Made by a program: the position numbers and the translations under genes
The notes under the pieces: model-generated
Told to the model about the DNA's origin: nothing
The model's database searches: none
What the model saw: the letters and a program-made list of their open reading frames with translations, nothing else
Shown: piece after piece, positions 10,255 through 59,101 of the stretch
Layout of the letters: the number at the start of each line of letters is the position of its first letter
Numbering within the stretch: position 1 is the stretch's first letter
Source of the DNA: a virus
DNA length: 64,000 bases
Virus record (IMG/VR): IMGVR_UViG_3300003322_000266
Location: 17,456 to 81,455 of that record
Direction: 5' to 3' (one strand)

Positions 10255-10366
10255 GGGGTACCTCAAGTCCTTATTTACGGTTTCGACTGTGACAAATGCG
10301 TGGAACTTCTGGACCCTCGTGGACAATTTTAGGACTGTCTCACCTCTTCAAATTGGGCTCCGAACC
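10255..10366. promoter_or_regulatory. Divergent promoter region
   Basis: This 112-bp gap separates the divergent nuclease operon (minus) from the plus-strand fibre block and is clearly AT-richer than its surroundings. On the plus strand, GACAATTTTAGGAC at 10322-10335 matches the AT-rich motif found in other gaps of this genome. On the minus strand, GTAAATAAGG lies just upstream of the nuclease ribosome site. Both operons must be promoted from here or run from outside. No sigma-70 pair with good spacing was recognised. Confidence 0.5.
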
Positions 10367-10729
10367 ATGATCGCCGACCTCATTGCACTACTGTTCTTCA
10401 GCCGGGACTATGCGCATCGAGCGCATCTGGCGACCGGAAGCTACTCACAGCACAAGGCTCTCGAAACCTTTTACGAGGACATGACCGAGGCTGCAGACAA
10501 GCTGACCGAGACGTGGCAAGGTCAGAACGGCAAGCGCTTGAAGATCGGCTACGTGCATGACGAACCCGACGTCATGGAGCCCGAGGCAACGCTCACCAAA
10601 CACTTCCACATGGTCAAGGCTCTGCGCTACGACGCGGTGCCCAAGGACCAGACGATGCTCCACAACCAGATCGATGAAATCGAAGCCCTGTTCGCGCAGA
10701 CGCTCTACAAGCTCAAGTTCCTCAAGTAA
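10367..10729 (+). CDS. DUF5856-like phage protein, 120 aa
   Basis: From ATG 10367: MIADLIALLFFSRDYAHRAH. The 'LFFSRDYAHRAHL ... SQHKALxxFYxxM' pattern recurs in T4-like and other large myoviruses as an uncharacterised, four-helix-type, ferritin/Dps-like small protein. Conserved His and Tyr residues in helix 1 and a later His-Lys pair are present. It is the first gene of the plus-strand block, right behind the divergent region. Family recognition is fair; role unknown. Confidence 0.65.
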   Translation: MIADLIALLFFSRDYAHRAHLATGSYSQHKALETFYEDMTEAADKLTETWQGQNGKRLKIGYVHDEPDVMEPEATLTKHFHMVKALRYDAVPKDQTMLHNQIDEIEALFAQTLYKLKFLK

Positions 10730-10741
10730 GGAAGGATAGTC

Positions 10742-13033
10742 ATGACCCAGAACACGAGTCCCCTCTTCTACACGAAGGCGGTCGTTCATCCTGCGGGCTA
10801 CGCGGGCTCCAGCTACACGGCCATGATTCCGTGGGTGCCGAGCTTCGCGGCCGTGTCGAAGTCTGCGGCGCTCTGCGTCGTCACCGAAGACACGAGCGCC
10901 ACGTACCCGGCCGGTCTCTACGCTCAGATCCCGAACGCGGACAACCTGAGCCGCCCGACCTGGAAGCTGGCTATCGGCTTCCCCGACCTGTGCTCCATGG
11001 TCGCCGACGGTTCGATCATCGAGCTCTACCTCGCCGTCACGGGCGATCAGACATTCGGCGCCGGCTACCGTGTCTTCCGCAACGGCACGCTGACCACGGA
11101 CTCGAGCCTGCACGCCGACCCGTACTCGGTGTGGGCTGTCGTTCGTCTGCCGGCCTCAGGCGGCGGCTCCGGCGGCGTCGCTTCGATCAACAACATCCTG
11201 CCTGACGGTTCCGGCAACGTCATCCTAGCGTCGACGAACCTGACCGACAGCGCATCGCTGCTCAGGGCCAGCAGCCTCGGCGCCGCGTCCGGCATCGCGA
11301 CCCTCGGGTCCGATGGCAAGCTCACGGCCGGCCAGCTGCCGACCATCCCGTACCCCGTCACGTCGGTGAACGGCAAGACCGGTGTCGTCAGCCTGGCCTC
11401 GACCGACCTGTCCGACACGTCAGGTCTGGTTCGCACCACCAGCGTCGGCCAACCCAACGGCCTGGCAACCCTCGACTCGGGTGGCAAGGTTCCGACTTCG
11501 CAGCTGCCTGCTGCAGTCCTCGGAGCCATGAACTACCAGTCGACGTGGAACGCGACGACGAACACGCCGGTTCTCACATCCGGGTCTGGCACCAAGGGTT
11601 TCTACTACACCGTCGCCGTCGCCGGCTCGGTCAACCTGGACGGCATCACCCAATGGAACGTGGGTGATCACGCAGTCTTCAACGGTACGGCCTGGGAGAA
11701 GATCGATGGCATCGCCTCGGAGGTGATCTCGGTCGCAGGCCGCACCGGCGTCATCGTCCTCTCGAGCGCTGACATCAGCGACTTCGCTGCCACGGTGACG
11801 ACGCCTCTGAGCCAGAAGGTCAACACCAGCATCGTCGGTCAGGCCAACGGTATCGCGACCCTCGGCTCTGACGGCAAGCTCACGGCTGCGCAGATGCCGG
11901 CGACAACCAACCTCGTGACTTCGGTCGCCGGTCGTCAGGGTGCAGTCGTTCTCTCGAGTGCCGACCTCACGGACTTTGCGTCCGCGGTGACGACGCCTCT
12001 GTCGCAACGCGTGCTGACCTCCAGTGTCGGAGCCGCCAACGGCGTCGCCAGCCTGGACTCGAGCGGCAAGCTGTTCGCAGCTCAGCTGCCGTCCTCTGGC
12101 TTCGTCTCCACGGTCGCCGGTCGCTCGGGTACCGTCACGATCGCCAGTACCGATCTGACCGACGTCGCTTCGGCCATCACGACTCCCCTGTCCCTGCGTG
12201 TCCTCACCTCGTCGGTGGGCGCTGCCAACGGTGTCGCCAGCCTGGATTCGGGCGGCAAGGTCCCAACCTCTCAGCTGCCCTCGTCGGTCCTCGGTGCTCT
12301 GAACTATCAGGGTACGTGGAACGCGACGACGAACACCCCGACCCTGACGTCGAGCTCCGGTACCAAGGGCTTCTACTACACGGTGTCGGTCGCGGGCTCC
12401 ACGGCTCTGGACGGCATCTCGCAGTGGAACGTCGGTGACCACGTCGCTTACAACGGCACGGTCTGGGAGAAGATCGACGGCATCGCGTCCGAAGTCATCT
12501 CCGTCGCAGGCCGCACCGGTGCCGTCACGCTGACGACTGCTGACCTGACCGACTACTCGTCGACGATCGGCACGCCTCTGTCGACCGCAACCTCGAACAT
12601 CACGACCCTGCAAGGTCAAGCCAATCCGATCCCGATCGGTCTGAGCGCCAACGACACCTGGAAGGGCTTCGGTGCCGTCTCGGGCATCAACGCCGGTGCG
12701 ACGCTGACGATCTGGCAACCGGTCTACATGGGCTCGGGCGGCACCTGGCTGGCAGCGGACGCGACCTCGGTCTCGACTGCACCGTGCCGTGGCCTTGCCG
12801 TCTCGGCCGGTACCAACGGCAATCCGGTCACCGTCCTCTACGAAGGCATCGCCCGCCACGACGCATGGACGTGGACTCCGGGTGGTGACATCTACCTCGC
12901 GGTCGGTGGCGGCCTGACCCAGACGAAGCCGACGGGCACGACTGGCTACGTGGTGCAGGCCATCGGTATCGCGCTGTCGGCGACGAAGATCCTGGTCAAC
13001 ATGGGCTCGTTCGAGTACATCACCCTGAGCTAA
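10742..13033 (+). CDS. Tail fibre with NGKTG-type repeats, 763 aa
   Basis: Residues 1-145 form an N-terminal domain shared with the proteins at 26725-27702 and 32484-33062, probably the attachment to the virion. From about 200 on there are repeated fibre motifs (VNGKTGVVSL, VAGRTGVIVL, VAGRQGAVVL and others), each followed by a D-L-T/S-D strand. A 110-residue block (GGKVPTSQLP to EKIDGIASEV) occurs twice, 257 codons apart. The C-terminus resembles the closing domain of many phage fibres (GDIYLAVGGGLTQTKPTG). A trimeric receptor-binding fibre is the natural reading. ATG 10742 has AAGGAAGGA upstream. Confidence 0.85.
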   Translation: MTQNTSPLFYTKAVVHPAGYAGSSYTAMIPWVPSFAAVSKSAALCVVTEDTSATYPAGLYAQIPNADNLSRPTWKLAIGFPDLCSMVADGSIIELYLAVTGDQTFGAGYRVFRNGTLTTDSSLHADPYSVWAVVRLPASGGGSGGVASINNILPDGSGNVILASTNLTDSASLLRASSLGAASGIATLGSDGKLTAGQLPTIPYPVTSVNGKTGVVSLASTDLSDTSGLVRTTSVGQPNGLATLDSGGKVPTSQLPAAVLGAMNYQSTWNATTNTPVLTSGSGTKGFYYTVAVAGSVNLDGITQWNVGDHAVFNGTAWEKIDGIASEVISVAGRTGVIVLSSADISDFAATVTTPLSQKVNTSIVGQANGIATLGSDGKLTAAQMPATTNLVTSVAGRQGAVVLSSADLTDFASAVTTPLSQRVLTSSVGAANGVASLDSSGKLFAAQLPSSGFVSTVAGRSGTVTIASTDLTDVASAITTPLSLRVLTSSVGAANGVASLDSGGKVPTSQLPSSVLGALNYQGTWNATTNTPTLTSSSGTKGFYYTVSVAGSTALDGISQWNVGDHVAYNGTVWEKIDGIASEVISVAGRTGAVTLTTADLTDYSSTIGTPLSTATSNITTLQGQANPIPIGLSANDTWKGFGAVSGINAGATLTIWQPVYMGSGGTWLAADATSVSTAPCRGLAVSAGTNGNPVTVLYEGIARHDAWTWTPGGDIYLAVGGGLTQTKPTGTTGYVVQAIGIALSATKILVNMGSFEYITLS

Positions 13034-13046
13034 TAGGAGCTGCCCA

Positions 13047-14915
13047 ATGGCTGTCAAGAACGCAGTATCAAGGGCTTGGCAAAAGACGGGTGGTGGAGCA
13101 CCTCTTCCCAGCTTCAACGGGAAGATCTACTCCGGCTACCTGAATGGCGACAAGCCTTCTGGCTTTCAGACCGCACCGAAGATCGTCGGTACGGACCTTA
13201 AGGCCATCACCCTCGTCAACAACTACAACGGTCAGGGTTCGTGGTTCAAGATTTTCGGCTACGGTCTGGGTTCGAGCTCTCTGTTCGGGTCCTCGACTGG
13301 CGCCAAGGTCTACCTCCGGGACCCGGCCGGCGACAACGCGTGGCACGAGGTCTCGACCTACGTGGCATTCGAAACCAGCCGCACCTTCGCACGCAATCAG
13401 CTCCTGCGACTGACCGTGCAGGTCGGCAACCTCGGAGGTTCGCAGGTCGATGGTCGCGCGCTTGACCTCAAGATCACTGTCAACGGTGTGGACACGAACG
13501 TCCTCACCGCGGCTCTGATCAACCAGGGTGCGCGCGACTTCTACTACGCGTCGCCAGCCGGCAACGACACGACGGGTGTCAAGAACGACATCACGAAGCC
13601 CTTCCGCTACGTCCAGTACTTCAACTCGACAAACAACACCTACACCGGCATCTGGGCTGCGTGGAAGCGTGGTGACACCATCGTCATTCGGGGCAACGGC
13701 GGAACCTGGAGCGACCAGATCGCAGACACCCGATGGGTTCGATTCCCGTGGGGCCCTGCGGCAGGTTCGTACACCGGCACAGCACCGACAGGCGCTGTCA
13801 ACACGGGCTACTACACCTTCTACGGCATGCCCGGCGAAGACGTGTACGGCTCGTTCGCTACTGGTGGTGGCATCCAAGGCTGTTCAAGCGCCCAAGCGCA
13901 ATCTGGCTACGGCCAGTACGTGCAGATCACGGGCATGCGCATCGACATTCAAGGCGGTGCGGCTCGTGACGCCGGTCCGGTCAACCTCCAGAACGGCGCC
14001 GACCACTGGATCGTTACCGACATGGAATGCGGTCCGTGGATCGCAGGCTCGAGCTCGGTCCTGAACAGCAGCGGCATCGGCGGTCAAGGCACGAACTGCT
14101 ACGTCGCCTTCAACTACGTGCACGGGATTCAGGGTCTGTCCGACCTTCAGAATCACGGCATGTACTTCGGTGGTGTCGCAGGTGGCACAGGATACAACGC
14201 CGCAACGCAGAACACTGAAGTCTGCTACAACTGGGTGCAGAACTGCACGGGTGGGTCAGGCATCCAGTTCTACTGGCAGGGCGGCAACAGCGTCTACATG
14301 ACCGGCAACAAGGTCCACCACAACTTTGTGGAGACCACGGCCAAGTACGCGATCAACATCGGCGAGTCCTGCGTCTCGATGGATTGCTACGACAACATCT
14401 GCGTCTACGCAGGATGGTCGGCGATCCGTCTCGCACCGCTGTCGGCTTCCGGCACTCTGGCCATCAACATCGAGCACAACACGCTTTATGCTTGGAACCA
14501 GAGCCACGGCGCGACGACTGCGATCGCAGCGATCTTGAACGAGGGCTTCCTGAACACGGGGGCGACCAAGGTCAACCACAACATCATCGCAGCTCCGACC
14601 CGCAGCGGCACCTACTCGATCGACTGGTATTCGAACAACGGCGCGTCCGACTCGAACCTGACGGCGAGCCAGAACCTGTACTGGGACCCGGACGGTGTGA
14701 AGACCGTGGCGTGGTCGATCGACGCGGCCGGCATCTTCGCCGATCCGAAGTTCAGCGACAAGGCGAACCTGCTGTTCACGCTGCTGGCTGGTAGCCCTGC
14801 GCTGGATGCGGTCACGACGGCTGCGTCTCTGACGGTCAGCGACGACTACTACGGCATCAATCGTCCGTCGGGCACCCGCAACGACATCGGCGCATGTGAA
14901 GGAGTCGGCACATGA
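13047..14915 (+). CDS. Beta-helix tail spike, likely polysaccharide depolymerase
   Basis: 622 aa. Residues about 25-155 are an IPT-like beta domain; from YYASPAGNDTTG (about 168) a right-handed parallel beta-helix of the pectate-lyase type follows, with repeated N-N-x and H-N-x turns (VNHNIIAAP, IEHNTLYAW). The end, RNDIGACEG, is the DIGA-E closing motif of such helices. These proteins usually cleave capsule or O-antigen. About 565 residues are paralogous to the middle of the 21502-26136 protein. The active site cannot be placed with certainty. AGGAG precedes ATG 13047. Confidence 0.85.
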   Translation: MAVKNAVSRAWQKTGGGAPLPSFNGKIYSGYLNGDKPSGFQTAPKIVGTDLKAITLVNNYNGQGSWFKIFGYGLGSSSLFGSSTGAKVYLRDPAGDNAWHEVSTYVAFETSRTFARNQLLRLTVQVGNLGGSQVDGRALDLKITVNGVDTNVLTAALINQGARDFYYASPAGNDTTGVKNDITKPFRYVQYFNSTNNTYTGIWAAWKRGDTIVIRGNGGTWSDQIADTRWVRFPWGPAAGSYTGTAPTGAVNTGYYTFYGMPGEDVYGSFATGGGIQGCSSAQAQSGYGQYVQITGMRIDIQGGAARDAGPVNLQNGADHWIVTDMECGPWIAGSSSVLNSSGIGGQGTNCYVAFNYVHGIQGLSDLQNHGMYFGGVAGGTGYNAATQNTEVCYNWVQNCTGGSGIQFYWQGGNSVYMTGNKVHHNFVETTAKYAINIGESCVSMDCYDNICVYAGWSAIRLAPLSASGTLAINIEHNTLYAWNQSHGATTAIAAILNEGFLNTGATKVNHNIIAAPTRSGTYSIDWYSNNGASDSNLTASQNLYWDPDGVKTVAWSIDAAGIFADPKFSDKANLLFTLLAGSPALDAVTTAASLTVSDDYYGINRPSGTRNDIGACEGVGT

Positions 14916-16489
14916 CTATCAGCTTCGTAGGCTCAGCGGTCCAGAACTCCGGTTCTGGAACCAGCGGCACGGCTACCCTGAACGTCAGTACGCCGGGCAA
15001 CGGCATCGCCGTCATGGTGAATGCCAACGTCGCGATCTCGTCCATCACCGAGTCTGGTGGTGTGACGCGGATCGTGGTCAAGGGCCAGACCTGTACGGAT
15101 GCGCCGACCTTCAGCGGCAACCTCTACTTCTTCCCGAACGTGACGGGTGGCAGCCACACGATCACCGCGAACTTCGGTTCGAGCGCGAACTGGTGTATCG
15201 TGGTGCAGGAAGTGGCGGGCATGTTCACGCCCACGGTCGACAAGACTGCGGGTAACGGCGCCTATACGGCGACGACGAACACGGGCTCGACCGGCACCCT
15301 GACTCAGGCTGTCGAACTGGCCCTAGCCGTCGTCCAGAACTGCAACTCCAACTTCACGTCGACTGCGAACCCGGCAGGTTGGACCATCCTGTCCTCGTCC
15401 TCGTTCGCAGGTCCGTCCGGCTTCTCGTTCGCCGGTCTGGTCACCAGTGCCACGACGGCCCTGAATCCGACCTGGACGACGACGGGTGGCAACTACGAGT
15501 CTGCGAACGCGATCGGTACGCTGATCCCGGGCACGGCTCCGCCTGCTGCCACCTTGACGTCTCCGTCTCCGTCGGGAACCATCTCGACTGCGACGACTGC
15601 GAACGTGGGTGCGACGACGGACACGTCGGGCGGCACCGGATATTGCGTGGTCACGACTTCGAGCCTGAGTGGCGTCACGGCTGCTCAGATCAAGGCGGGT
15701 CAGAACGCGGCGGGTTCGACTTCGGGCGTCCAGTCGGCTACGACCTCGGTGTCGGCGACCGGCAGCTTCACGTGTGCGATCACGGGCCTCACGGCTTCCA
15801 CGACCTACAACTACGCAGTGGTCGAAACCACGGCCGGTGGCGATTCCAACATCGTGAGCGGCACGTTCACGACTGCACCGCCTCCGCCTTCGGTGACGAG
15901 TCTGTCGACCACGACGCCGCAAGCCGGTCAGAGCCTGACGATCACGGGTACGGCCTTCAACGCCACGCAGTCGGGTGGCTCTGTTGCCATCGGCGGCGTC
16001 AACCAGACGGTGACGGCCTGGTCGAACACCAGCATCACGATCACCGTCGTTCAGGGTACGTTGCTCTACGGTGCGACGACCCTGACGGTGACGAACGGTG
16101 TGACCGGAAGCCAGTCGACTGGCACTGCTTGCACGATGTCGCCGGCCACCGGCTGGTCCTACATCGTGGTCGGCACTCCCGATCCGGTGACGACGGAACG
16201 CGTGACTGCTACTCCGGTCGACATCGCAACTGGTGACCAGATCGCGTGGGGCAACATCCAGGGCTCAGGTACGTTGACCATCAACACCGATGGTTCGTGG
16301 ATCGCAGACCCGGGTGTCACCAGCTTCGACTACATGGTGGGCACGCCCGGCTCGGGCTTCGGCTCGGTCGCAACCAACACCCTGGGCGCTGGTGCGTCGG
16401 TGAAGAATGGTGTGATTCACACCTACAACATCAAGGCCAGTTCGGACACGAAGTTCTACTCGCAATACCCGGCGGGTAACCATCCATAA
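14912..16489 (+). CDS. Modular adhesin/fibre with FN3-like and IPT domains, 525 aa
   Basis: Starts ATGA-coupled to the spike gene. Residues 1-205 are a beta-sandwich seen several times in this island. Residues about 208-310 form one FN3-like module (TAAQIKAGQN, GLTASTTYNYAVV). Residues about 315-395 are an IPT/TIG-like domain (TPQAGQSLTITGTAFN). The C-terminal part (GWSYIVVG ... SGDQIAWG type) recurs at the end of the next protein. No catalytic motif is visible. Probably part of the virion surface, alongside the spikes. Confidence 0.75.
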   Translation: MTISFVGSAVQNSGSGTSGTATLNVSTPGNGIAVMVNANVAISSITESGGVTRIVVKGQTCTDAPTFSGNLYFFPNVTGGSHTITANFGSSANWCIVVQEVAGMFTPTVDKTAGNGAYTATTNTGSTGTLTQAVELALAVVQNCNSNFTSTANPAGWTILSSSSFAGPSGFSFAGLVTSATTALNPTWTTTGGNYESANAIGTLIPGTAPPAATLTSPSPSGTISTATTANVGATTDTSGGTGYCVVTTSSLSGVTAAQIKAGQNAAGSTSGVQSATTSVSATGSFTCAITGLTASTTYNYAVVETTAGGDSNIVSGTFTTAPPPPSVTSLSTTTPQAGQSLTITGTAFNATQSGGSVAIGGVNQTVTAWSNTSITITVVQGTLLYGATTLTVTNGVTGSQSTGTACTMSPATGWSYIVVGTPDPVTTERVTATPVDIATGDQIAWGNIQGSGTLTINTDGSWIADPGVTSFDYMVGTPGSGFGSVATNTLGAGASVKNGVIHTYNIKASSDTKFYSQYPAGNHP

Positions 16490-16498
16490 GGAGATCAC

Positions 16499-19400
16499 AT
16501 GTCTCTGACTATGACGCTCTTGACCCCGTTGACGCGGACGGGGAATACGAGCTCCTCGGCTGCCTGGACGACGGGTAACACGACGGTGCCGGCCAACAGC
16601 ACCGTCGTCTACATTGTGTCGGGTTGTGCGTTCAGCTCGGCGGGTGTGAATCCTGCAAACTTCGCACTCTCGACTTCGGCTGCAGGTGTTCCAACCCTGA
16701 TCGGCAACAGCGGCCTCAGCTCCAACTGGGGCTACGGTCACAAGGTCTGGTACGTCACGAACTCCACGGGTTCTGATATCACGACGACCCTGACCGTGAG
16801 TGTCAGTACCAACGACGTCATGTCGGAATGGTCGATCGTGCCGATCGAGTTCCAGGGCATTGCGTCTGGTACGCTGTTCACTGGCTTCACGACTGGCATC
16901 GCTGCTGGTAACGTCGCCCAGACCCTGACGCTGGCTGCGGCTCCTGTGGCTGGCGACTACACGATCGGTGCCCTGATGGGTATCGTCAACGATGGTCTGA
17001 CCTACAGCGCGACTGTCGGTACTGGCTACACGCTAGCCTCAACGACCAGTGACACGGTGGGCGAATCCTACACGGCGATTCAGTATCGCACGGGTTCGAC
17101 CTCGACGGCTGCTGGTTGGGCCAACACGGGTCATTCCGGTGGTACGAACGCGGTGGAAGTCCAGTCGATCGCCTTCAACGTCAAGGCTGCGACTGGTGGC
17201 TCTGCGCCGACTCTGTCGAGCCCGACGTCGAGCAACATCCAGACGACGACCGCGACTGTCGGAGCTACCACGGACACCGGGTCGGGTACCATGTACGCTG
17301 TGGTGTACACGGGTACGACCCCGACCGTGGCTCAGATCAAGGCCGGTCAGAACTCGTCGGGCACTTCGACCCCGAATGCCAACGTCGCAGTCTCTTCGAC
17401 CGGCGCCAAGACGCTGAACATCACGGGTCTGAGCGCCAACACGGCCTACAACTACGCTCTGGTGCACAACAGCACAGGTGGCGATTCCAACATCGTCACC
17501 GGCACGTTGACGACCCTGGCTGTCCCGACCCTGAGTGCTGCCACGACGGCCTCGATCACGACCACGGGCGCGACCCTGGGTGCCACGACTACAGTCGGAG
17601 CCGGTACCCTGTACGTCGTCGCCTACACGGGATCGGTTCCAACCGCGGCTCAGATCAAGGCCGGCACGGACTCGACCAACGCAGCGGCACCGAACGGTAG
17701 CGTCGCCGTTTCCTCGACGGGTGCGAAGACGATCGCAGTCACGGGCATGAAGTCCGGGACCGCCTACAACTTCGCTCTGGTGCAGAACGATGGTTCGGAC
17801 TCGAACGTCCTGACCTCGACGGTGACGACCACAGCCGTGACTCTGACGTCGCCCACCAGCGCGTCGATCACGGCGACCTCCGCGTCTGTGGGTGCGACTA
17901 CGGATACGGCTGCAGGCACCATGTACGTGGTGGTCTACACTGGTTCGGCTCCGACTGCGACCCAAATCAAAGCGGGTCAGAACTCGAGTGGCGCTGCGAC
18001 TCCGAGTGCGAACGTCGCAGTCTCGTCCACGGGCGCCAAGTCCCTGTCGGTCACTGGCCTCACGGCTTCGACGGCCTACAACTACAGCGTCATCGTCAAC
18101 AACGGCGGCGATTCCAACATCGTCACCGGCACGTTCACGACCAGCGCGCCATCGGCTGCGACTCTGACGAGCCCGACGAGCTCGAACGTTGCGGGTACGA
18201 CGGCCACGGTGGGTGCGACCACGGACACCGGATCGGGTACTCTGTACGCTGTCGCTTACACGGGTACTCAGCCGACTGCGACCCAGATCAAGGCCGGTCA
18301 GAACAGCAGCGGAGCAGCGACTCCGAATGCGAGCGTCACCGTCACCTCAACGGGTGCGAAGACGATCAACCTGACTGGTCTGACGAACAGCACGGCCTAC
18401 AACTACGCCCTGGTGCAGAACAACGGTACGGACTCGAACGTCGTGACGGGAACGTTTACGACGTTGACGCCGGCCACGTTGTCGGCACCAACCAGTGCGT
18501 CAGTGACGGGCACGACTGCGACTCTGGGTGCGACTTCGAACCAGACCGGTACTCTGTACATCGTGGCTTCGACCACGAACACGCAGCCGACTGCGGCCCA
18601 GATCAAGGCCGGTCAGAACGCAGCAGGCACCACGGTTCCAAGCGTCAGCGGCGCGGCTACGGCCTCGGCGAATACGTTGGGCATCACCGGCCTGTCGCTC
18701 GCTACCACGTACTACTTCTTCGCGATCCTCAACAACTCGGCGGGTGACTCCAACATCGTGACCGGCTCGTTCACCACGAGTTCGATTGCGACGCCGACTG
18801 TGACCCTGAGGCAGAAGTGGTATCAGCCTGCGGGTCAGGGCAACCCTGCGACTCTGGTGTCGGGTTCCAATCCGATGTCGATCACTGCAGGGTCGATGCT
18901 GGTCTGCTTGTACACCGGCGCCGACAACGGCACGATCGCACCTCCGACTGATAGCGCGGGCTCGTTCACGATCCCAACCAATGCTCGTCAGGACGCGGCT
19001 GGCTCGGATCACATCTGGGCCGCCATCTGCCATCAGCAGAACGCAGCGGGTGGCAATCACACGATCACTCCGGCCACGATCGCTGTGGGTGGTGGAGGTG
19101 AACTCGAGTGCTGGATCTACGAAGTGACGGGCATGCCGGCAACGGCAAACGTCCGTGATGTCGGCTTCGTCAACGTCATCGGTACTGCGCAGTCGTGGAC
19201 GGTTCAGTCGGGTACGACGCCGCAAGTGGGCGACATCTCGTTCGTCATCACGGTCTACGAGAACACAGCCAACTTCGCGAACGCCGGCCTGCAGAATCCG
19301 CCCACGGGTTGGACGGCACTTGATGTCAACCAGGACGCGACGAACTTCATCCCGACGCAGCTCAGCTACAAGATCGTCTCGTCTGCAGGTACGCAGAGCG

Positions 19401-21056: not shown

Positions 21057-21089
21057 AAAGGGCTGACACTAATTTGATGTCAGCCCTTT
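21057..21089 (+). terminator. Strong hairpin terminator behind the FN3 adhesin
   Basis: Perfect 12-bp stem, AAAGGGCTGACA paired with TGTCAGCCCTTT, with a 9-nt loop (21069-21077). The 3' arm ends in TTT followed by CC, so the U-tract is short. The loop holds CTAATTTGATG, which also matches the AT-rich intergenic motif, so a promoter for the next gene may overlap it. Confidence 0.8.
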
Positions 21090-21108: not shown

Positions 21109-21492
21109 ATGACTCAAGCCATCAACGTCGAAGGCGCATACTCGATCGTGACGCCAGCCGGCAAGCAGCTCCTGGCCGAGCTCGGGACCTTGATCAAGAT
21201 CACGAGCTACAGGTTCGCCGACGGCTACGACTACGTCCCTGATCCCGACCAGTCGGCCTTCAAGGGCAAGCTGACCGGCGTCGAGGAAGGGTCAGAACCC
21301 AAGGTCGAAGACAACGACATGGTGTATCAGATCGTTGTCCCTGCCGAGATCAACTTCGACTTCGGAGAGATCGGACTCTTCGCCGGACATCAGCTGGTGG
21401 CTTTGATCGTCCTCAAGTCCAAAGTCGAGATTCGCTTCGGTGACGAACCCGTCGCCATCTCCTGCACCCTCCCACTGCCTACCAAGGCCTGA
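21109..21492 (+). CDS. Tail-collar-fibre N-domain protein, 127 aa
   Basis: A free-standing copy of the phage tail-collar-fibre N-terminal domain (PF12571/DUF3751 type): INVEGAYSIVTPAGKQLL, then FDFGEIGLFAGHQLVALI. The same pattern opens the next gene and the 38128-39114 fibre. In P2-type phages this domain fixes the fibre to the baseplate. Alone, it may act as an adaptor or a chaperone for the giant fibre encoded next. AGGAC precedes ATG 21109. Confidence 0.7.
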   Translation: MTQAINVEGAYSIVTPAGKQLLAELGTLIKITSYRFADGYDYVPDPDQSAFKGKLTGVEEGSEPKVEDNDMVYQIVVPAEINFDFGEIGLFAGHQLVALIVLKSKVEIRFGDEPVAISCTLPLPTKA

Positions 21493-26141: not shown

Positions 26142-26167
26142 AGGGTGGAACTTTCGGGTTCCACCCT
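26142..26167 (+). terminator. Hairpin terminator behind the giant fibre
   Basis: Stem AGGGTGGAAC / GTTCCACCCT with a 6-nt TTTCGG loop, six bases after the stop codon and followed by TTG. It ends the adhesin transcription unit. Weak U-tract, strong stem. Confidence 0.8.
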
Positions 26168-26210: not shown

Positions 26211-26225
26211 GACAATTTCATGCAA
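26211..26225 (+). promoter_or_regulatory. AT-rich motif, candidate phage promoter
   Basis: GACAATTTCATGCAA lies between two hairpins in a 196-bp gap and precedes the holin-candidate and fibre genes. It matches motifs at 10322, 21069, 32441, 53793 (minus) and 59074 (minus). A hairpin begins eight bases after it, the same arrangement as at 53770-53808. Promoter function is inferred from recurrence and position only. Confidence 0.45.
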
Positions 26226-26232
26226 TCTTCCA

Positions 26233-26260
26233 GCGCGCCGCCTTGTTCCCTACGGCGCGC
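26233..26260 (+). terminator. Second GC-rich hairpin, terminator or 5'-UTR structure
   Basis: Stem GCGCGCCG / CGGCGCGC, 12-nt loop, followed by TTTCTTT. Shape and T-tract fit an intrinsic terminator, giving a tandem with the hairpin at 26142. Its place just behind the candidate promoter motif also allows a structured leader that is processed or attenuated. Confidence 0.6.
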
Positions 26261-26285
26261 TTTCTTTACGTTAACGGAGCATCCG

Positions 26286-26332: not shown

Positions 26333-26674
26333 ATGGAACACGTAGCTACCATGGAACACTTCGACATGGTCACCATGATTGTCGACGGGCTTTTTACGCT
26401 CGTCGCTTTCCTGGGTGGCTTCCTACTCAAGGCCATGTGGACTGCGATCGACAAGCTCCGTGAGGACCTGCTCGAACTCAACAAGGCCATCGCTCGCGAC
26501 TACGTTCGTCGTGACGACTTCCACGCACACGCAAAGCGAGTCGAAGACCTGCTGGCTCAGACCCATAGCGAATACGTTCGCAGGGAAGACTTCCAGCAGT
26601 TCACACTCCGCATGGAGACATCCATCCAGCGCTTGTTCGACAAGATGGATGACAAGGCCGACAAGACTCGCTGA
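26333..26674 (+). CDS. TM plus coiled-coil protein, holin candidate, 113 aa
   Basis: One transmembrane helix at about residues 13-34 (MIVDGLFTLVAFLGGFLLKA), then a long charged coiled coil to the end (KLREDLLELNKAI, RREDFQQFTLRMETSIQRLF). The repeat 'DYVRRDDFHAH / EYVRREDFQQF' shows an internal duplication of 33 residues. It lies between fibre genes, upstream of spanin and endolysin genes, so a lysis role is plausible, but the single TM and long tail could also be a membrane-anchored accessory protein. Confidence 0.5.
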   Translation: MEHVATMEHFDMVTMIVDGLFTLVAFLGGFLLKAMWTAIDKLREDLLELNKAIARDYVRRDDFHAHAKRVEDLLAQTHSEYVRREDFQQFTLRMETSIQRLFDKMDDKADKTR

Positions 26675-31770: not shown

Positions 31771-32445
31771 ATGAGAACGCAAGAGCAATGGATCAAGATT
31801 CTGACCGGCTGTGGCGTCGAGGCCTCGCATGCACAGCAGTGGGCGCCTATCTTCGTCCCACATCTCGACGACGAGACCTTCGACGGCGGAGACCTGGAGC
31901 TGACGCAGTTCCTGGCTCAGTGCCTACACGAGTCGAACCTGCTGTCCGAGACCAGCGAGAACCTGAACTACAGGGCCGACAAGCTGCAAGCCGTCTTCGG
32001 ATCGAAGCGCATCACTGCCGAGCAGGCACAAGCCTACGGTCGGATCGACGGCAAGCAGGCCGCGAACCAGGAACAGATCGCCAACATCGTGTACGGCGGA
32101 CCCTGGGGTGTCACCAACCTAGGCAACACGCGGCCTGGTGACGGCTGGGCCTTCCGTGGTTCTGGTCTCATCGAGATCACGGGCGCTGCGAACTTCAAGC
32201 TCGCGACCAAGCGCACCGACATCGACTTCTACTCGAATCCGGAGCTGATGAGGCAGGTCGGTTGGCCTGCACTCTACGCTTCGATCGAGTGGTGGAAAGA
32301 GCACGTGACGACGAAGATGCTCACCGATCCCGTTGCACTCCGGCACTGCATCAACGGCGGAGAGCTCGGTCTGCAAGACTGCATCCAACTCGCCAACAAA
32401 CTCACTTCCCTCATGGCGGCCGAACCGGATCACGCGGCCACCTAA
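31771..32445 (+). CDS. GH19-type endolysin, 224 aa
   Basis: A chitinase-like muramidase of the GH19 fold that cleaves peptidoglycan glycan strands. Landmarks: FLAQCLHESNLLSE with catalytic Glu54 (second acid probably Glu63), NLNYRADKL, then ANIVYGG and DGWAFRGSGLIEITG at 124-138, then NF. No signal peptide or separate cell-wall-binding domain, so release through a holin is expected. TAAGGA precedes ATG 31771. It closes the lysis cassette. Confidence 0.9.
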   Translation: MRTQEQWIKILTGCGVEASHAQQWAPIFVPHLDDETFDGGDLELTQFLAQCLHESNLLSETSENLNYRADKLQAVFGSKRITAEQAQAYGRIDGKQAANQEQIANIVYGGPWGVTNLGNTRPGDGWAFRGSGLIEITGAANFKLATKRTDIDFYSNPELMRQVGWPALYASIEWWKEHVTTKMLTDPVALRHCINGGELGLQDCIQLANKLTSLMAAEPDHAAT

Positions 32446-32455
32446 TTTCATCTGC
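32441..32455 (+). promoter_or_regulatory. AT-rich motif at the endolysin stop
   Basis: CCTAATTTCATCTGC overlaps the endolysin stop codon (TAA at 32443) and lies about 30 bp upstream of the next start. It matches the recurring gap motif. It may promote the short protein at 32484. Inference from motif similarity. Confidence 0.35.
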
Positions 32456-53232: not shown

Positions 53233-53492
53233 GCTGCCTCCGCTTCCGACCGAATGTTGCGCGCCAGTTTCTGCGCGGTGGCCAGATCGATGGTGATGAC
53301 TCGGGTGGGGTCGTTCGGAAACACGAGGCGGATGTGCTTGCCGTTCGACGACGGACGCACGCCGAAGCGTGTGCCTTGCTTGATCGTGACCGGATTGCCA
53401 CGGAAGTCCACCGTCACGGGTTTGGCACCGTCGTAGGTGAAGAACTCGTAGTCGGATTCCGGCTTGATTCGCGCCAGAAGGAATGAGTGCAT
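53229..53492 (-). CDS. Hypothetical protein, 87 aa
   Basis: Beta-rich N-terminal 65 residues (DYEFFTYDGAKPVTVDFRGN, then TIKQGTRFGVRPS), then a helix (LATAQKLARNIRSE). Soluble. Located in the portal-to-tube interval and coupled to its downstream neighbour by ATGA. Role unknown. Confidence 0.65.
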   Translation of the reverse strand: MHSFLLARIKPESDYEFFTYDGAKPVTVDFRGNPVTIKQGTRFGVRPSSNGKHIRLVFPNDPTRVITIDLATAQKLARNIRSEAEAA

Positions 53493-53494
53493 GT

Positions 53495-53746
53495 TCAGTG
53501 CTCTCCGATCTGGGACTTGCGCAGACGCAGGTCGGAGATGTTCTCCTTCGTGCGGTTGATCTGCTTCTCGGTCGTGTTGCGTTGAACCGGCGACATCGCG
53601 CGCCGATTCTCACGGCTCGGCATCGAGTGCTTGAGGTTCTCGACCTGCTTCTTCTTGTTCTCGATCTGGTTGTCGAGGTTCTGCTTCTGTTGCTTCTGGC
53701 TCGGTGTCTCGTCGGCCAGCAAGCGACTCTTAGCGTTGAGCTTCAT
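53495..53746 (-). CDS. Hypothetical coiled-coil protein, 83 aa
   Basis: ATG 53746 has GGAG six bases upstream and is preferred over two upstream ATGs. Nearly all residues are charged or Gln/Asn helix (SQKQQKQNLDNQIENKKKQV). A small assembly or scaffold-type role is possible; not recognised. A hairpin and the AT-rich motif precede it. Confidence 0.6.
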   Translation of the reverse strand: MKLNAKSRLLADETPSQKQQKQNLDNQIENKKKQVENLKHSMPSRENRRAMSPVQRNTTEKQINRTKENISDLRLRKSQIGEH

Positions 53747-53769
53747 GTGTGACTCCATGACTGGAGCAA

Positions 53770-53808
53770 GACCCTCCGTAGAGGGTCCCGCAGTTGCCAT
53801 AAAATTGA
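53770..53808 (-). promoter_or_regulatory. AT-rich motif followed by a UNCG-loop hairpin
   Basis: On the minus strand TCAATTTTATGGCAAC (53793-53808) matches the recurring gap motif, and just downstream is a GACCCTC / GAGGGTC stem closed by a TACG loop (53770-53787), a C(UNCG)G-type very stable tetraloop. Either a leader structure in a transcript starting at the motif, or a terminator/processing site behind the portal gene. Confidence 0.5.
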
Positions 53809-53819
53809 TGCCCAGACTC

Positions 53820-55703
53820 TTAGGCGCCGAAGCCCGGAAGGCGGTCGGCACCGAGCTTCTTCATGTTGGCTTGCTTGAGCCGCGCTCGGTAGTTCGGGTC
53901 GGCCTCGACTTGAGCTGCGATCTTGGCGATGCGCCAGTTCATGTCGCGAGCCTTCATGCGAGGCTGTGCAGCGTCGGGTACGTGCCGCTTCTTGCCGGTC
54001 ACGGACTCGGTGAACATCTCTGGATTCTTGAACTCACGTGCGAGGATGCCCTTGGCGAAACCACCGAGGCCATGCTTGACAGAGCCCGTGGTCAGCTGGT
54101 TCGATTCGGCCTTCTGACCTTGCGTCGGAGCCAGGTTGTCATCGCCAGAGCCTGACCCGGAACCACCATCGTCACCGAACTCGGCATCATCGGGGTTCTG
54201 GTTCGCCACGTTCTGTGGCAGCTCCATGTACTTCGAGATCTGCTTCTTGATCTCTTCGTTCTCGCGAGCATCGCGGATCAGAGTGTCCTTGTCGACACCA
54301 GCAGCCGCAAGCCACATCTTCAGTGGCACAGGCACGCCGTGACCTTCCAGCTTCTCCAGCATGTCCATCATGTTGTCTTCGCCCTTGGCCGTCAGGTCCT
54401 TCGTCCAGTGCAGCACTGGAATCCGGAGGTTCTCACGGTTTGCGGCGTTGAACATGAAGTCGAGCAGTCGATCGGATTGACCGGCCTTCGACGGGTCCTT
54501 GAACAGACGGTTGGCGATGGCGATGAGAGGGAACAGCTTCTTGTAGAAGATGCCGTTCGTCAGGTGCGTCCGGTAGCCGTTCGTCGTCTCCAGGAACGTC
54601 GAGTAGGCCGACTCGGCCGCAGCATACGATGCGTCACCGCTCATCATCGCTTCGCTGACGCCCAGGGCACGCAGCTTGTACGGAGTCATGACGTCGGTCA
54701 TGTCCGTCCACTTCCAGAAGTCGCCACCTGGGCGCAGGTCTTGAATCTGGATCGCGTTGCGCGTCGAGATCCAGCCGCCCATCGGGTCCTTCTCGGCATC
54801 CATGAACTGCTGGACTAGGACCTGCAGCTCTTCACTGGTCGGCGTCCACACGTCGTCGCCGGCTGCGATGTGCGACATCGCGCGCTGCCGGCGTTGGGCT
54901 TCGGTCAATGTGCCCCGGAACATGGTCTTCTCGATCATGTACATGGGCAGGATGCGATGAAGGTATGACTGGTACGCACGGTCGGTCAGACCACGACGAC
55001 CAAGCCAAAGAGTCGTGATCGGATCGAGAACGAACGAGCCTTCCTTCAGCAGCTTCGTGAACGCTTGTGGAATCGTCGCCAGATAGGCCCTCGCGTAGTC
55101 GGTCGCTGAGTCGAGGAACCGCATCGTCGGACCTGAGACCGAGACTCGAACCGTCGGGTCGACGTTGTTGAACGGGCTTGGACTCACACCGCACTGCATG
55201 GCATCGTGCGTCAGGATGTCCATGAAGTTCTTCGCGGCCGCATCGAAGATCAGAGACCCGCAGTAGAAGCCGTCGGTCAGGTACGCGACCGAGAGTTGAG
55301 GCAGCAGCTCTTGGAGGTTGAGCCTGGACAGCGCTGCGTTGAAGACGTCGGTCTCTTTGTCTTCGAGACCACGGAGTTCCCAGTCCGAGAACGGGAACAC
55401 CGACTGGATATCGACCGCCGACCCTGCCACGTTGTCGTGCATGTAGATGTCGCGGTAGAAGTAGGTCAGTGACGACGAGTCCGGAATCTCTGGAGTCGCC
55501 GGCAGCAACCCGCTCATGTAGTAGTTGAAGTTCGACCCGTGGTAGAACTGGGACGAAACGTTCGAGGTGCTGAACGTGCCACCACCGCCACTGAGCGCAG
55601 CGGTCACGATGTTGTCGCCACGGGCTTGTCGCTGCGGCAACATCGCGGTCGTCTTCACTTCACCCCGACGGGTGATAGCGGTGATACGGTCTTTGGCAAA
55701 CAT
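53820..55703 (-). CDS. Portal protein, 627 aa
   Basis: The dodecameric vertex through which DNA enters and leaves. Portal-type landmarks: HDNVAGSAVDIQSVFPFSDW near residue 90, a central stem region, and DDVWTPTSEELQVLVQQFMD near 285 followed by GGWISTRNAIQI, then the C-terminal domain with GVPVPLKMWLAA (about 455-467). Position next to TerL and near the tail genes fits. AAGGAA precedes ATG 55703. The VPLKMWLAA segment is repeated in the protein at 57166-58431. Confidence 0.82.
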   Translation of the reverse strand: MFAKDRITAITRRGEVKTTAMLPQRQARGDNIVTAALSGGGGTFSTSNVSSQFYHGSNFNYYMSGLLPATPEIPDSSSLTYFYRDIYMHDNVAGSAVDIQSVFPFSDWELRGLEDKETDVFNAALSRLNLQELLPQLSVAYLTDGFYCGSLIFDAAAKNFMDILTHDAMQCGVSPSPFNNVDPTVRVSVSGPTMRFLDSATDYARAYLATIPQAFTKLLKEGSFVLDPITTLWLGRRGLTDRAYQSYLHRILPMYMIEKTMFRGTLTEAQRRQRAMSHIAAGDDVWTPTSEELQVLVQQFMDAEKDPMGGWISTRNAIQIQDLRPGGDFWKWTDMTDVMTPYKLRALGVSEAMMSGDASYAAAESAYSTFLETTNGYRTHLTNGIFYKKLFPLIAIANRLFKDPSKAGQSDRLLDFMFNAANRENLRIPVLHWTKDLTAKGEDNMMDMLEKLEGHGVPVPLKMWLAAAGVDKDTLIRDARENEEIKKQISKYMELPQNVANQNPDDAEFGDDGGSGSGSGDDNLAPTQGQKAESNQLTTGSVKHGLGGFAKGILAREFKNPEMFTESVTGKKRHVPDAAQPRMKARDMNWRIAKIAAQVEADPNYRARLKQANMKKLGADRLPGFGA

Positions 55704-55714
55704 CGTTGTTCCTT

Positions 55715-55894
55715 CTACAGGTAGAGCTCGCGACTCACGTCATGTCGCGGCTCCGTTCGTTGATCTCGCAGGCTTTCCAAAAGCAGGATCAGCTCTTCCT
55801 TGAGCCTGACCCTGAGCAGTGCCTGTTGTCTGAAATGGCGATCGCGCCTAACCTGGAGTTGCTCTGGGCTCGGGCGCTGGTGACGTGTGAACAT
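55715..55894 (-). CDS. Small basic helical protein upstream of the portal gene, 59 aa
   Basis: Easily missed frame: ATG 55894 (MFTRHQRPSPEQLQ) to TAG 55715, with GAGG seven bases upstream, filling an otherwise empty 209-bp gap. Arg/Glu/Leu-rich amphipathic helix (LLRVRLKEELILLLESLRDQ). No other frame in the gap has a ribosome site. Function unknown; close spacing to the portal gene suggests coexpression. Confidence 0.6.
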   Translation of the reverse strand: MFTRHQRPSPEQLQVRRDRHFRQQALLRVRLKEELILLLESLRDQRTEPRHDVSRELYL

Positions 55895-55912
55895 GAGGTA
55901 CCTCGTGAGAGG

Positions 55913-56410
55913 TTACTTGCTCTTCGCCGCATTCGTATCCGCAGACCGGAATGCGGCACGGATGTAAATCGATCTGGCGGTGTCCTCTTCAACTTCAAAG
56001 GGCTTGGCGCCCTTAACCTTGATGATGCGCAGGCCGTCTTCACTCATGATGAAGCAGCCCCAACCTGGAAGTATACGAGCTCCGACTTTCTTGTACACCG
56101 ACTCTGGCATCGCCACGTAGCTCTGGTTGCAGTACTCTTCATACTGCGCCATCTTCTTGTCAGCCCTGAAGTCTGCGACCGAGGACTTGACTTCGACGAT
56201 GACCAGATAGCCGTTCATGGCCAGGACGAGAATGTCGGCACGAAGACGACCCATGGGCACCAAGCCGATCTCGAAGAAGCACATGCGCATCTTCTTCGCG
56301 TAGTACTTGGCGACCGTGGCCTTGATGTTGTCAGCGAGACCAGTCGAGCGCTTGAGCCTGATGTCGATAGCGCCGTAGGTCAGAGCCTTGGTTCTGCGAC
56401 GGCGACCCAT
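55913..56410 (-). CDS. MmcB-like PD-(D/E)XK nuclease, 165 aa
   Basis: From ATG 56410 with GAGG upstream. Motifs of the restriction-like fold: FFEIGL, RLRADILVL with the catalytic Asp, VIVEVKSSVADFRADKKMAQ with E-x-K, then YEEYCNQSYVAM. This is the MmcB DNA-repair nuclease pattern. In a packaging/recombination operon it could resolve branched DNA or protect replication intermediates. Family match by motif; target structure not known. Confidence 0.75.
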   Translation of the reverse strand: MGRRRRTKALTYGAIDIRLKRSTGLADNIKATVAKYYAKKMRMCFFEIGLVPMGRLRADILVLAMNGYLVIVEVKSSVADFRADKKMAQYEEYCNQSYVAMPESVYKKVGARILPGWGCFIMSEDGLRIIKVKGAKPFEVEEDTARSIYIRAAFRSADTNAAKSK

Positions 56411-56417
56411 CCGAGCC

Positions 56418-57215
56418 TCACTGCTGCAGGAATGAGATCGCGTCACGCTTGACGTCGGCGAACTTGCTCTGAATCGCTTGACTGATCCGCACCAGTGACT
56501 CCTGTCGTGCCTGCTGAATGTGCTTCGCAGCCTCGGCAGTTGTCACCGATCGGATCGTGGTCTCGACCAGCCGATCCTCCTGCACCAGCAGCATGCCGAT
56601 GTCGAGGAAGACGGGACGGATGATCTTCTCAACCATGGCGTCACCCAGCGCACCCTTGTCTCGCGTCGACTGCATGTCGATGACGAGCTCGCGGATCGAG
56701 GTGATCAGCGAGTTGTACTGGTAGACACCACGTGCGCCCTTGGTCTTGCGGATCGCATGCTCCGCGTAGGGCAACATATCGAGAGTGGCTTGGGCCAGAC
56801 GCTTGAGCAGTAGCGACTGTGCGCTCTCGTGAGAGTCTGACTCGAGAAGCTGGTTGATCTCTTCGGCACTGTCACCGAGGATCGACTTCATCTTTCCAGG
56901 TGTGAGCTTCGAGATCGTCTTCGTCGCCGGCTTCTCGAGTCGAGCTGGAAGGTTGTCCTTCTTCAGTTTTGGGATCATCAGTGCGGTCGATCCCTTTTTC
57001 TTCTTCAGTTTCTTCTCGCGCTCGCGCTCGATCTCGGCCACGGCCGGGTTGCGCTTCTTGCCCGAGTCCGCAAGCGCCAGACTGGAATCCCGGCGCTTGA
57101 CCGGGATGTCGTCGTTCAGGTGCTTGGTTGAGACACGCCCATTCGACCTCTTGGTCGAGAGGTGGTCACCGGACTTGAGCTTCTGTACCTTGACCTTGCT
57201 TTTTGAAGTATTCAT
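56418..57215 (-). CDS. Hypothetical head-region protein with basic N-terminus, 265 aa
   Basis: From ATG 57215, which overlaps the previous gene by 50 bp and has no clear ribosome site. Residues 1-110 are Lys/Arg/Ser-rich and probably disordered (KKLKKKKGSTALMIPKL). Residues 115-265 are helical (RLAQATLDMLPYAEHAIRKT, then TSIRELVIDMQSTRDKGALG). A DNA-contacting scaffold or an internal head protein is possible; nothing is recognised. Confidence 0.6.
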   Translation of the reverse strand: MNTSKSKVKVQKLKSGDHLSTKRSNGRVSTKHLNDDIPVKRRDSSLALADSGKKRNPAVAEIEREREKKLKKKKGSTALMIPKLKKDNLPARLEKPATKTISKLTPGKMKSILGDSAEEINQLLESDSHESAQSLLLKRLAQATLDMLPYAEHAIRKTKGARGVYQYNSLITSIRELVIDMQSTRDKGALGDAMVEKIIRPVFLDIGMLLVQEDRLVETTIRSVTTAEAAKHIQQARQESLVRISQAIQSKFADVKRDAISFLQQ

Positions 57216-58431
57216 GATCGTCGGGGAGAGGGAGAGAGATGCGGCAGTTCTTGCAGCCCCAGGAAGGAGCATCGCCTGCCATGGCGATGACCATGGGCTG
57301 CGAGCAGTCGGGGCAGTTGCCGGAACCCGCATGCTCTGCGCTCATGTTGAGCTTCGCCTCGACCTCGGTGCTGGCCTGGACCTTGGCTTCCTTAAGGTCC
57401 TTCTTCACCTCGGCACCCTTGCCTTCCTTCTGCGCCTCGGACTCGAACTTCTTCATCATCTCTTCGAGGTCGCCGTTCTCCAGCATGTCCATCATTTCCT
57501 TGATGGCGTTCTGCATCATCTGCTCTTCGTCCGATGCCGTGGTCAGGACCTTGATCGAAGCGTGATGCGCTGCAGCGCCAGCTGCACCCTTGACGGCCGC
57601 CTTGAGCAACGCTTCCTGCGCCAGGTGCGTGCCGAAGTGCTGAACGAAGGCGACGATGCCGTGCGCGGCACCACCGGTCAGAAGCAGAGAGGCCGTGACG
57701 GCAGCGATGTCGGCAGCGACGGCACCCATCGCGTGCTTGTCTTCGTGCTCAAGAGACTTGCCGGTCGCCAACTTCTTCATGGCGACGCCGGCCGTCTTCC
57801 ACTCCTTCGCGTCCTTCTTCAAGTGGCTGATGATGTGGCCGGTCTTCTTTCGCAGGAAGCCGACCGCAGCCTTGCGCTTCTCGCCACCCGGCTTCATGTC
57901 GGGATGCTTCAGGTCTTCCATCGTCGGCTTGGCCGGAGTGCCAACGTTCTCGTGATCCGAGTTCGCAGGCGGCTTCTCGCTCGGCTTCGTCTTCTGCGGA
58001 GCGTGACCCGGATGGCCAGGACCCTTCGACTTGGTCGGAGCAGGAGTCTGTGGCTTCGGCGCCTTCTTCTCGGTCGGCGAAGTCTTGCCTGGCTCTTGAC
58101 CCGTCATCGACTTGTGCATCTCGGCGTACTTGGAGTTCGGGTGTTCAGCCACGTACTCCTTCTTCGCTTCCGGGCTCATCTCGACCCACCACCGCGCGAC
58201 GTCGCCTTCGGCCCGGACTTCTTGCCGACCCGGCTTCGGGCTCTCGACCAGCTTCTCGTCACGGGCTTGGATCTCTTCCTTGCTCATGCCCGAAGCTGCA
58301 AGCCACATCTTCAGCGGAACTGGCTGCGGCGTCGCCTGAGGCTTGGCCACGACTGGCTCGGCATCACCACCGGTCTTGACGTGGAAGGCGGTGAGCGCCA
58401 TCGGCTGACCGAACGACTTTGGGATCTTCAT
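57166..58431 (-). CDS. Head-region protein sharing a portal motif, 421 aa
   Basis: From ATG 58431 with AAGGAG upstream. The segment VPLKMWLAASGMSKEE near residue 37 is almost identical to a portal segment. EMSPEAKKEYVAEHPNSKYA (about 98-117) is a module common in phage head proteins. A Pro/Lys-rich stretch, then small-residue helices (AVAADIAAVTASLLLTGGAA), acidic helices, and a C-terminal zinc ribbon (CPDC ... CKNC) complete it. Possibly a prohead core or internal head protein; unproven. Confidence 0.6.
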   Translation of the reverse strand: MKIPKSFGQPMALTAFHVKTGGDAEPVVAKPQATPQPVPLKMWLAASGMSKEEIQARDEKLVESPKPGRQEVRAEGDVARWWVEMSPEAKKEYVAEHPNSKYAEMHKSMTGQEPGKTSPTEKKAPKPQTPAPTKSKGPGHPGHAPQKTKPSEKPPANSDHENVGTPAKPTMEDLKHPDMKPGGEKRKAAVGFLRKKTGHIISHLKKDAKEWKTAGVAMKKLATGKSLEHEDKHAMGAVAADIAAVTASLLLTGGAAHGIVAFVQHFGTHLAQEALLKAAVKGAAGAAAHHASIKVLTTASDEEQMMQNAIKEMMDMLENGDLEEMMKKFESEAQKEGKGAEVKKDLKEAKVQASTEVEAKLNMSAEHAGSGNCPDCSQPMVIAMAGDAPSWGCKNCRISLPLPDDHEYFKKQGQGTEAQVR

Positions 58432-59054
58432 GACTGCTCCTTGACTTTGCGCTCGCGGCGCAGTGGAATGCGTGAGGTGGACTCGACCTGTTTGATCCAG
58501 TCCTCGAAATCGAAATCTATGGTGATGCCGAGCCCTTGCTCGAGGCCGTAGATGCCGATCAGACTTGCGTCGAGTTGGTGGGGCTGGACACGCACCCGCT
58601 TGTAGACCTCCTTGAGGTCGATGTCGAAGCGGCGCTGCATCGAGTTCTTCCACACCGAAGCGATCGTGAGCTTGATCGGAGTGTCTGGGTACGTGCCACC
58701 AATGAGGCCGAGCATGGCGCTGACCTGCTCGATCAGCGGACCCATGGACGAACCGCCACGAGTCTGAAACCGTTCGGCGATGATGCCGTTCGGCTCGTAC
58801 TTCATCCAGCCCTTGACTTCAGTGAGGAAGTTCCGCCGCGTTATGGCGAAGGCAACCAGGTCGTTGACCGGCTTCATCATCACCGAGTTCAGGTAGCACT
58901 TGGCGACGCCGTGCTCGAGACCGACGAGTGCGATCCCGAAATTGCGTGACCCAGGGTCCATGGCGAGCATCAACTTGTCGGGTTTGCCGGCCAGGACTTT
59001 CGGTAGCGTGTATGGGGTGTTCGGCTTCTGCGCTTTCTTTTTCCGGCGACTCAT
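58428..59054 (-). CDS. RuvC-like Holliday junction resolvase, 208 aa
   Basis: RNase H-fold resolvase pattern: Asp33 in LAMDPGSRNFGIAL, Glu94 in GIIAERFQTRGGSS, and His159 with Asp162 in VQPHQLDASLIGIYG. It would clear branches before packaging, the job of gp49 in T4 by a different fold. It lies between TerL and head genes. The start codon 59054 is inside an inverted repeat that may block its ribosome site. Confidence 0.85.
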   Translation of the reverse strand: MSRRKKKAQKPNTPYTLPKVLAGKPDKLMLAMDPGSRNFGIALVGLEHGVAKCYLNSVMMKPVNDLVAFAITRRNFLTEVKGWMKYEPNGIIAERFQTRGGSSMGPLIEQVSAMLGLIGGTYPDTPIKLTIASVWKNSMQRRFDIDLKEVYKRVRVQPHQLDASLIGIYGLEQGLGITIDFDFEDWIKQVESTSRIPLRRERKVKEQS

Positions 59055-59101
59055 GGTGAGGTACCCATCTTATGTTGGCATAAAATTAGCGCCTCACCAT
59101 G
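59052..59101 (-). promoter_or_regulatory. Inverted repeat and AT-rich motif over the resolvase start
   Basis: CATGGTGAGG and CCTCACCATG form a perfect 10-bp inverted repeat around a 30-nt loop that contains the recurring motif (GCTAATTTTATGCCAAC on the minus strand, 59074-59090). In RNA that covers the whole element the start codon would be paired; RNA started at the motif lacks the 5' arm and would leave it free. That predicts promoter-dependent translation, as with T4 late genes. Inference from sequence. Confidence 0.55.

Follow-up and report, generated by a model that had tools for sequence, protein, structure and literature searches.

The AT-rich element AATTTNAT(G), with the core AATTTNATG, lies shortly before genes for virion components, packaging, and lysis throughout a clade of jumbo phages. 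With a probability of roughly 0.7, we infer that it is the late promoter of these jumbo myoviruses, read by the host core RNA polymerase together with a phage sigma factor of the phrog_17569 family. In the mechanism proposed here, this element (class B) would act alone, as a -10-like element with no -35 box, would be recognised by the host core carrying the phage sigma factor (which has region 2, but not region 4), and would turn on packaging, virion, and lysis genes late. Replication genes would start from a second element, (A/C)GTAAATA (class A), and the two classes would represent the middle and late steps of a cascade.

The DNA analysed is a 64,000-nucleotide stretch, hereafter denoted the window, which comprises positions 17456–81455 of an 81,455-bp virus record and has a GC content of 59.6%. 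By our own gene caller the coding share is approximately 93%, and intergenic DNA accounts for 7.3% of the record. The window is a piece of a jumbo phage with a contractile tail; its terminase most resembles those of the Burkholderia phages BcepSauron and BcepSaruman (50.7%), followed by that of Achromobacter phage Motura (44.4%), and its portal protein has relatives in 37 viral loci at 44–73% identity. Relatives were found by a portal protein search of viral loci, a TerL search of viral contigs having given nothing usable; they were fetched complete or nearly so and their genes then called. Motif counts are from 13 related jumbo-phage genomes, including BcepSauron (W01), Motura, PaBG, and, probably, RSL1, which we take to be genome G007; the closest relatives are G001, G002, and G003. 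Genes in most genomes come from our own simple caller, whose wrong start codons blur the motif-to-start distances given below and probably lie behind some of the antisense counts in G002.

Occurrence and orientation of the class B element

An earlier note on this DNA had described a recurrent motif, YWAATTTNATG, in gaps on both strands, and all six of the strings it listed are present where it placed them. The strict motif matches twice in the window (21069, plus strand; 59079, minus strand), compared with 0.01 matches expected from shuffles; the looser form with one mismatch is weak in the window alone (5 matches versus 1.86 expected). The record as a whole contains the core AATTTNATG four times (21071 and 26214, plus strand; 53798 and 59079, minus strand), each copy being intergenic and in the sense orientation. 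The probability of all four being intergenic is approximately 3e-5, before correcting for a motif that was picked afterwards. AATTT itself is rare, with 13 occurrences in 81 kb when both strands are counted. The record by itself has too few gaps for motif discovery, which failed to recover the motif from it.

Extension of the gap search to the 13 genomes bore out the recurrence, which is larger than the note had described. In tandem gaps there are 47 sense and 2 antisense copies of AATTTNATG, and 150 and 13, respectively, of the shorter AATTTNA. When 280 permutations of its letters are compared, AATTTNATG ranks first with its 47 copies, the other 279 averaging 1.57 with a maximum of 9. That the sites are chance AT-rich strings in the gaps of a GC-rich genome would fit the one-mismatch count, which is barely above chance in the window alone, but the strand bias, the permutation control, and the conservation of orthologous positions (described below) refute this for the class, and we give it a negligible probability; single sites, such as that at 32441, may still be chance strings.

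The types of gap in which the motif lies bear on a possible role in transcription termination. The 47 convergent gaps, where terminators are expected, contain a single AATTTNA, versus 27 copies in 50 divergent gaps, and on these counts we rejected the idea that the motif is a loop or upstream part of a terminator. This very improbable reading would account for the site at 21071, which lies in a terminator-like loop, and for BcepSauron 45184, directly before a perfect terminator; however, most gaps with the motif contain no terminator, and where tandem gaps have both, the terminator is upstream in 20 cases, overlapping in 4, and downstream in 9. These downstream cases (9 of 33, BcepSauron 45184 being an example) also count against a promoter.

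The logo derived from 175 class B sites reads cAATTTnAt, with no -35 or other second element. A purine at offset 11 is present in 76% of the sites and is possibly the start site; in the proposed mechanism, transcripts would begin approximately 4–5 nt after the element. The sixth base varies by genome: in G007 it is G at 19 of the 20 sites, in G014 usually C, and in BcepSauron usually T. The more distant PaBG has a TAATTTA form (9 sense, 0 antisense). The usual distance from the element to the start codon is 8 to 60 nt. The shortest distances, 8–16 nt, argue against a promoter, since at such spacing the transcript would have hardly any leader, unless it began immediately downstream of the element.

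The earlier note had proposed that the motif is the phage's own promoter class, unlike sigma-70. The sense orientation, the gap types, the upstream terminators, and the conservation before orthologous genes all support this proposal. Sigma-70-like sites (TTGACA-16/18-TATAAT) number 3, 0, and 3, against 3.7, 4.7, and 2.8 expected, and show no excess in the late region; class B has no -35 partner and does not fit a host sigma-70 promoter. A search of the open full-text literature returned neither AATTTNATG nor any report of AGTAAATA as a phage promoter.

Class B sites in the window and their hairpins

In G001, G002, and G003, AATTTTATG is found at the same two places as in the window, after the portal gene and after the terminase gene, with changed flanks. 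At the first of these the window has CAATTTTATG (53798–53807, minus strand), between the portal gene and the gene at 53495–53746, and class B precedes the post-portal gene in all three close relatives. A hairpin with arms GACCCTC/GAGGGTC follows the element (53766–53791, minus strand; z -5.1 for a longer fold), and hairpins of other sequence are present at the same post-portal place in G001 and G002. At the second, TAATTTTATG (59079–59088, minus strand) lies between TerL and the RuvC resolvase gene, 24 nt before the ATG at 59054. All nine relatives in which the RuvC N-terminus aligns have AATTTNA before the gene.

On the plus strand, the exact match TAATTTGATG (21070–21079) precedes the tail-fibre-like gene at 21109, and class B likewise precedes orthologues of the tail-fibre N-terminus in G007, G008, G012, G014, G016, and BcepSauron. 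The element is located in the loop of a terminator-like hairpin, GGGCTGACA/TGTCAGCCC-TTT (21057–21089, plus strand; -20.2 kcal/mol, z -4.8); a similar hairpin with the motif in its loop is found at 71274 in G002. A further exact, intergenic match, CAATTTCATG (26213–26222, plus strand), lies 110 nt before the gene at 26333. Upstream of it a terminator hairpin, GGGTGGAAC..GTTCCACCC-TTT (26143–26166, plus strand), can be read from the sequence, giving the classical order of stop, terminator, element, and gene. The hairpin downstream of this element, AGCGCGCCG..CGGCGCGCT (26232–26261, plus strand), has a fold z of only -1.7.

The site at 10322 reads AATTTTAGG, not ATG. This variant element (10325–10333, plus strand) lies in a divergent gap before a DUF5856-family gene (10367–10729), and inside the longest possible open reading frame, 10253–10729. 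The gene start is most likely at 10367 rather than at that of the long form, since in the latter the match to DUF5856 starts only at residue 58, which would place the true divergent gap at 10255–10366. The orthologous divergent gap in G002 contains a perfect AATTTTATG, 52 nt before the DUF5856 gene start. The element at 32441 (AATTTCATC, 32444–32452, plus strand) is doubtful: its core matches, its last base does not (it reads ATC), and the site overlaps the TAA stop of an endolysin gene. Thus four of the six sites listed in the earlier note hold; that at 26211 fits the motif but has no counterpart in the G002 orthologue, and that at 32441, also without a counterpart in G002, is weak.

The note had also stated that two sites are followed by hairpins, which is correct for 26214 and 53798. 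Across the genomes, hairpins with z<-2 occur right after the motif at 22% of sites versus 11% of control windows, and with so modest an enrichment we rejected the rule that a hairpin always follows the motif. At BcepSauron 45184 (locus L071, 45150–45200) and G007 183961, the motif is immediately followed by a perfect intrinsic terminator, which is unusual for a promoter; this order may reflect attenuation or a 5′ stabiliser.

At RuvC, an inverted repeat surrounds the element (59052–59101, minus strand; z -5.3), such that the start codon is predicted to be hidden in read-through RNA. The fold computed for the read-through RNA has an energy of -30.6 kcal/mol with the start codon paired, compared with -6.2 for RNA from the assumed start; RNA begun after the element is without the 5′ arm of the repeat. 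Reading of the RuvC leaders of the window, G002, BcepSauron, and G007 identifies inverted repeats that have the motif within them and overlap or border the ribosome-binding or start region. Those at 59052–59101 (minus strand), in L005 (approximately 6545), and in L121 (4490–4530) differ in sequence and have the same layout. The arrangement is missing from the folds of G003 and G016, and the predicted minimum-energy fold for G007 RuvC does not use the CCTCC/GGAGG arms. By analogy with T4 gene e, where a late promoter is embedded in a hairpin in the same arrangement (PMC3014915), the RuvC repeats are possibly a translational lock. At RuvC, and perhaps elsewhere, the element would lie in the 5′ part of a hairpin; this hairpin would sequester the start region of read-through RNA, leaving only transcripts initiated at the late promoter open to free translation.

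The hairpins also bear on whether the motif is an RNA element of 5′ leaders, i.e. a processing, stability, or translation signal, rather than a promoter. Sense-only placement and closeness to the start codon would look alike for either, hairpins contain or adjoin several of the sites, and some motifs are 8–16 nt from starts. However, not every site has a hairpin and the geometry of the hairpins varies, divergent gaps often contain the motif, and terminators, where present, are mostly upstream of it. The late region shows enrichment of no other promoter signal; in addition, another gene class is marked by a second motif placed in the same way. We consider an RNA element improbable, and a late promoter remains our preferred reading of class B.

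A second element and a candidate sigma factor

The earlier note had proposed one promoter class; class B fits this as a probable late class only, and a further class was missed. Word counts upstream of genes in the 13 genomes revealed this second element, (A/C)GTAAATA, with GTAAATA present in 139 sense and 4 antisense copies. Class A was noticed in G007, G008, G010, G012, G014, G016, and BcepSauron, and it also occurs as TGTAAACA in G003 and PaBG. In the window, GTAAATA (10272–10278, minus strand) precedes a PD-(D/E)XK exonuclease gene (9391–10254), as it does the exonuclease orthologue in G002, G007, G010, and G014. A second copy, at record position 11502 and so outside the window, lies before the sliding clamp gene, where GTAAATA is also found in 6 of 6 relatives with upstream sequence.

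The first genes after class A have matches to DNA polymerase, SSB, clamp, thymidylate synthase, DnaB, Dda, UvsX, SbcD, and QueD and, once, a sigma factor. Those after class B have matches to Holliday resolvase (five cases), baseplate wedge, holin, virion structural, and tail-fibre families, and only three genes are common to both lists. Since the genes following each class differ in function, class A is likely to be a middle and class B a late class, the timing being judged from gene function. Class B is also found before a large helicase-like gene and one for an exonuclease, which counts against the label 'late'.

A third enriched word, CCCATCGAAA and its variants, lies before GGAG at a nearly fixed distance of approximately 11 nt from the ATG; it was assigned to a ribosome-binding cassette rather than to a promoter. 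The extended cassette is genome-specific, being CTCCCATCGAAAcGGAG in G007 (L087–L098), CCCTATGAAAaGGA in G016 (L111–L120), and CCCTATGTAAaGGA in G012 (L101–L110), and some of these loci have TATAAT-like boxes upstream. The genes carrying it are small and probably early. Separately, upstream regions in BcepSauron contain approximately 20 copies of TATTGTTGACGG-like words, which are probably strong early promoters of the sigma-70 type.

The earlier note had suggested a search for a phage sigma factor or RNA polymerase gene, and the former was found, in a divergent form, in relatives. A protein of approximately 320 residues with a weak Sigma70_r2 match is present in 13 of 18 clade records, and each of the 10 members that were aligned has a match to phrog_17569 (RNA polymerase sigma factor). 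A profile of the family matches region 2 of RpoD (E 8.5e-6), and the listed PDB matches of an AlphaFold model (pLDDT 81.5, pTM 0.68) are sigma-70 chains, the best with E 2.8e-4. The annotations of BcepSauron and PaBG agree with this assignment. No match to sigma region 4 was seen in the clade proteins, the C-termini of which end in a loosely conserved LxxF. As for a polymerase, no RNA polymerase beta subunit (PF00562) scored above cut-off in the 18 records, G016 giving one weak match.

The gene order is sigma-SSB-RecA-TerL-RuvC in BcepSauron and sigma-SSB-RecA in PaBG. The record ends inside a gene (63549–64000, minus strand) for the 3′ end of an acidic-tailed protein that matches the SSB-like gene following sigma in relatives, and from this gene order the sigma gene of the present phage is expected just beyond the record end. 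A class A site lies 35 nt upstream of the sigma gene in G010, and in G007 and G008 the gene is part of a class A operon; in such genomes class A would drive sigma expression directly or from upstream. Five genomes (G007, G008, G010, G012, and BcepSauron) also have class-B-like sites 0.5–0.8 kb before the sigma gene. These sites lie ahead of the gene that precedes sigma (at approximately 0.8 kb from sigma in G007), a placement that possibly provides positive feedback on the sigma factor.

Which class the phrog_17569 sigma reads is less certain. It is conceivable, though unlikely, that it reads GTAAATA and that class B is a late promoter read by phrog_19229 or another activator. Class A, not class B, resembles the late box TATAAATA recognised by T4 gp55, together with its variant in Aeh1 (PMC2988020), and PaBG gene 112, a phrog_19229 member with homologues in ten other clade records, has been proposed as a second sigma factor (PMC7412058). 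The phrog_19229 family is conserved (315–390 residues; L229–L236, L237, L238, and L240), but sequence comparison gives no sign of a sigma factor, and the structure model has low confidence (pTM 0.31). Moreover, the position of the phrog_17569 gene after class A (G010) or in a class A operon (G007 and G008) is as expected if its product acts on the next class. We clearly prefer a sigma factor that reads class B over one that reads class A. A more elaborate, and rather doubtful, arrangement has two sigma-like proteins, with phrog_19229 directed to (A/C)GTAAATA for replication genes and phrog_17569 to AATTTNAT for late genes. If true, this would be a bacterial-style sigma cascade operating on the host core only, with hairpins locking late read-through transcripts.

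Comparison with known systems

The outcome is two candidate promoter sequences, the genes that each would control, and a candidate factor across one clade. The clade has culturable phages (BcepSauron, Motura, PaBG, and probably RSL1), making the late switch directly testable.

Phage sigma factors are believed to be the means by which jumbo phages that lack an RNA polymerase redirect that of the host, and the passages of a review that treat them name no promoter sequences (PMC13282480). Like phiKZ and AR9, the clade comprises jumbo phages with AT-rich, phage-specific promoters; those phages have multisubunit RNA polymerases, in contrast to the sigma-like factor of the clade, for which no beta subunit was above cut-off in the 18 records. 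Phage 7-11 gp47 is likewise a phage sigma factor for late genes (PMC8948821), but its late promoters, GTAAtg-(16)-aCTA, are bipartite, whereas no second element was found in the clade.

The T4 late system (gp55/gp33/gp45) shares with the proposed class B system a -10-like element only, a factor with sigma region 2 only, and the control of late virion genes (PMC2988020). The earlier note had called the motif unlike the T4 late box, and this is so for class B, which does not match TATAAATA; the second class, including GTAAATA at 10272 (minus strand), does resemble it. Class A is near TATAAATA but not identical, and precedes replication genes; the Aeh1 form of the T4 late box itself differs at -13/-12 (PMC2988020).

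In phiEco32, the sigma factor gp36 acts with the host core at middle and late promoters with the consensus tAATGTAtA, transcription starting 6–8 bp downstream (PMC8948821). The clade differs in its consensus, cAATTTnAt, in its contractile-tailed jumbo phages, and in having two element classes versus one, its start sites being predicted ones. The likeness lies in a phage sigma factor without region 4, predicted use of the host core enzyme, and a single-element promoter. As in both phiEco32 and T4 late transcription, a sense-oriented element precedes late genes, it has no -35 box, and the relatives encode a sigma factor with region 2 only.
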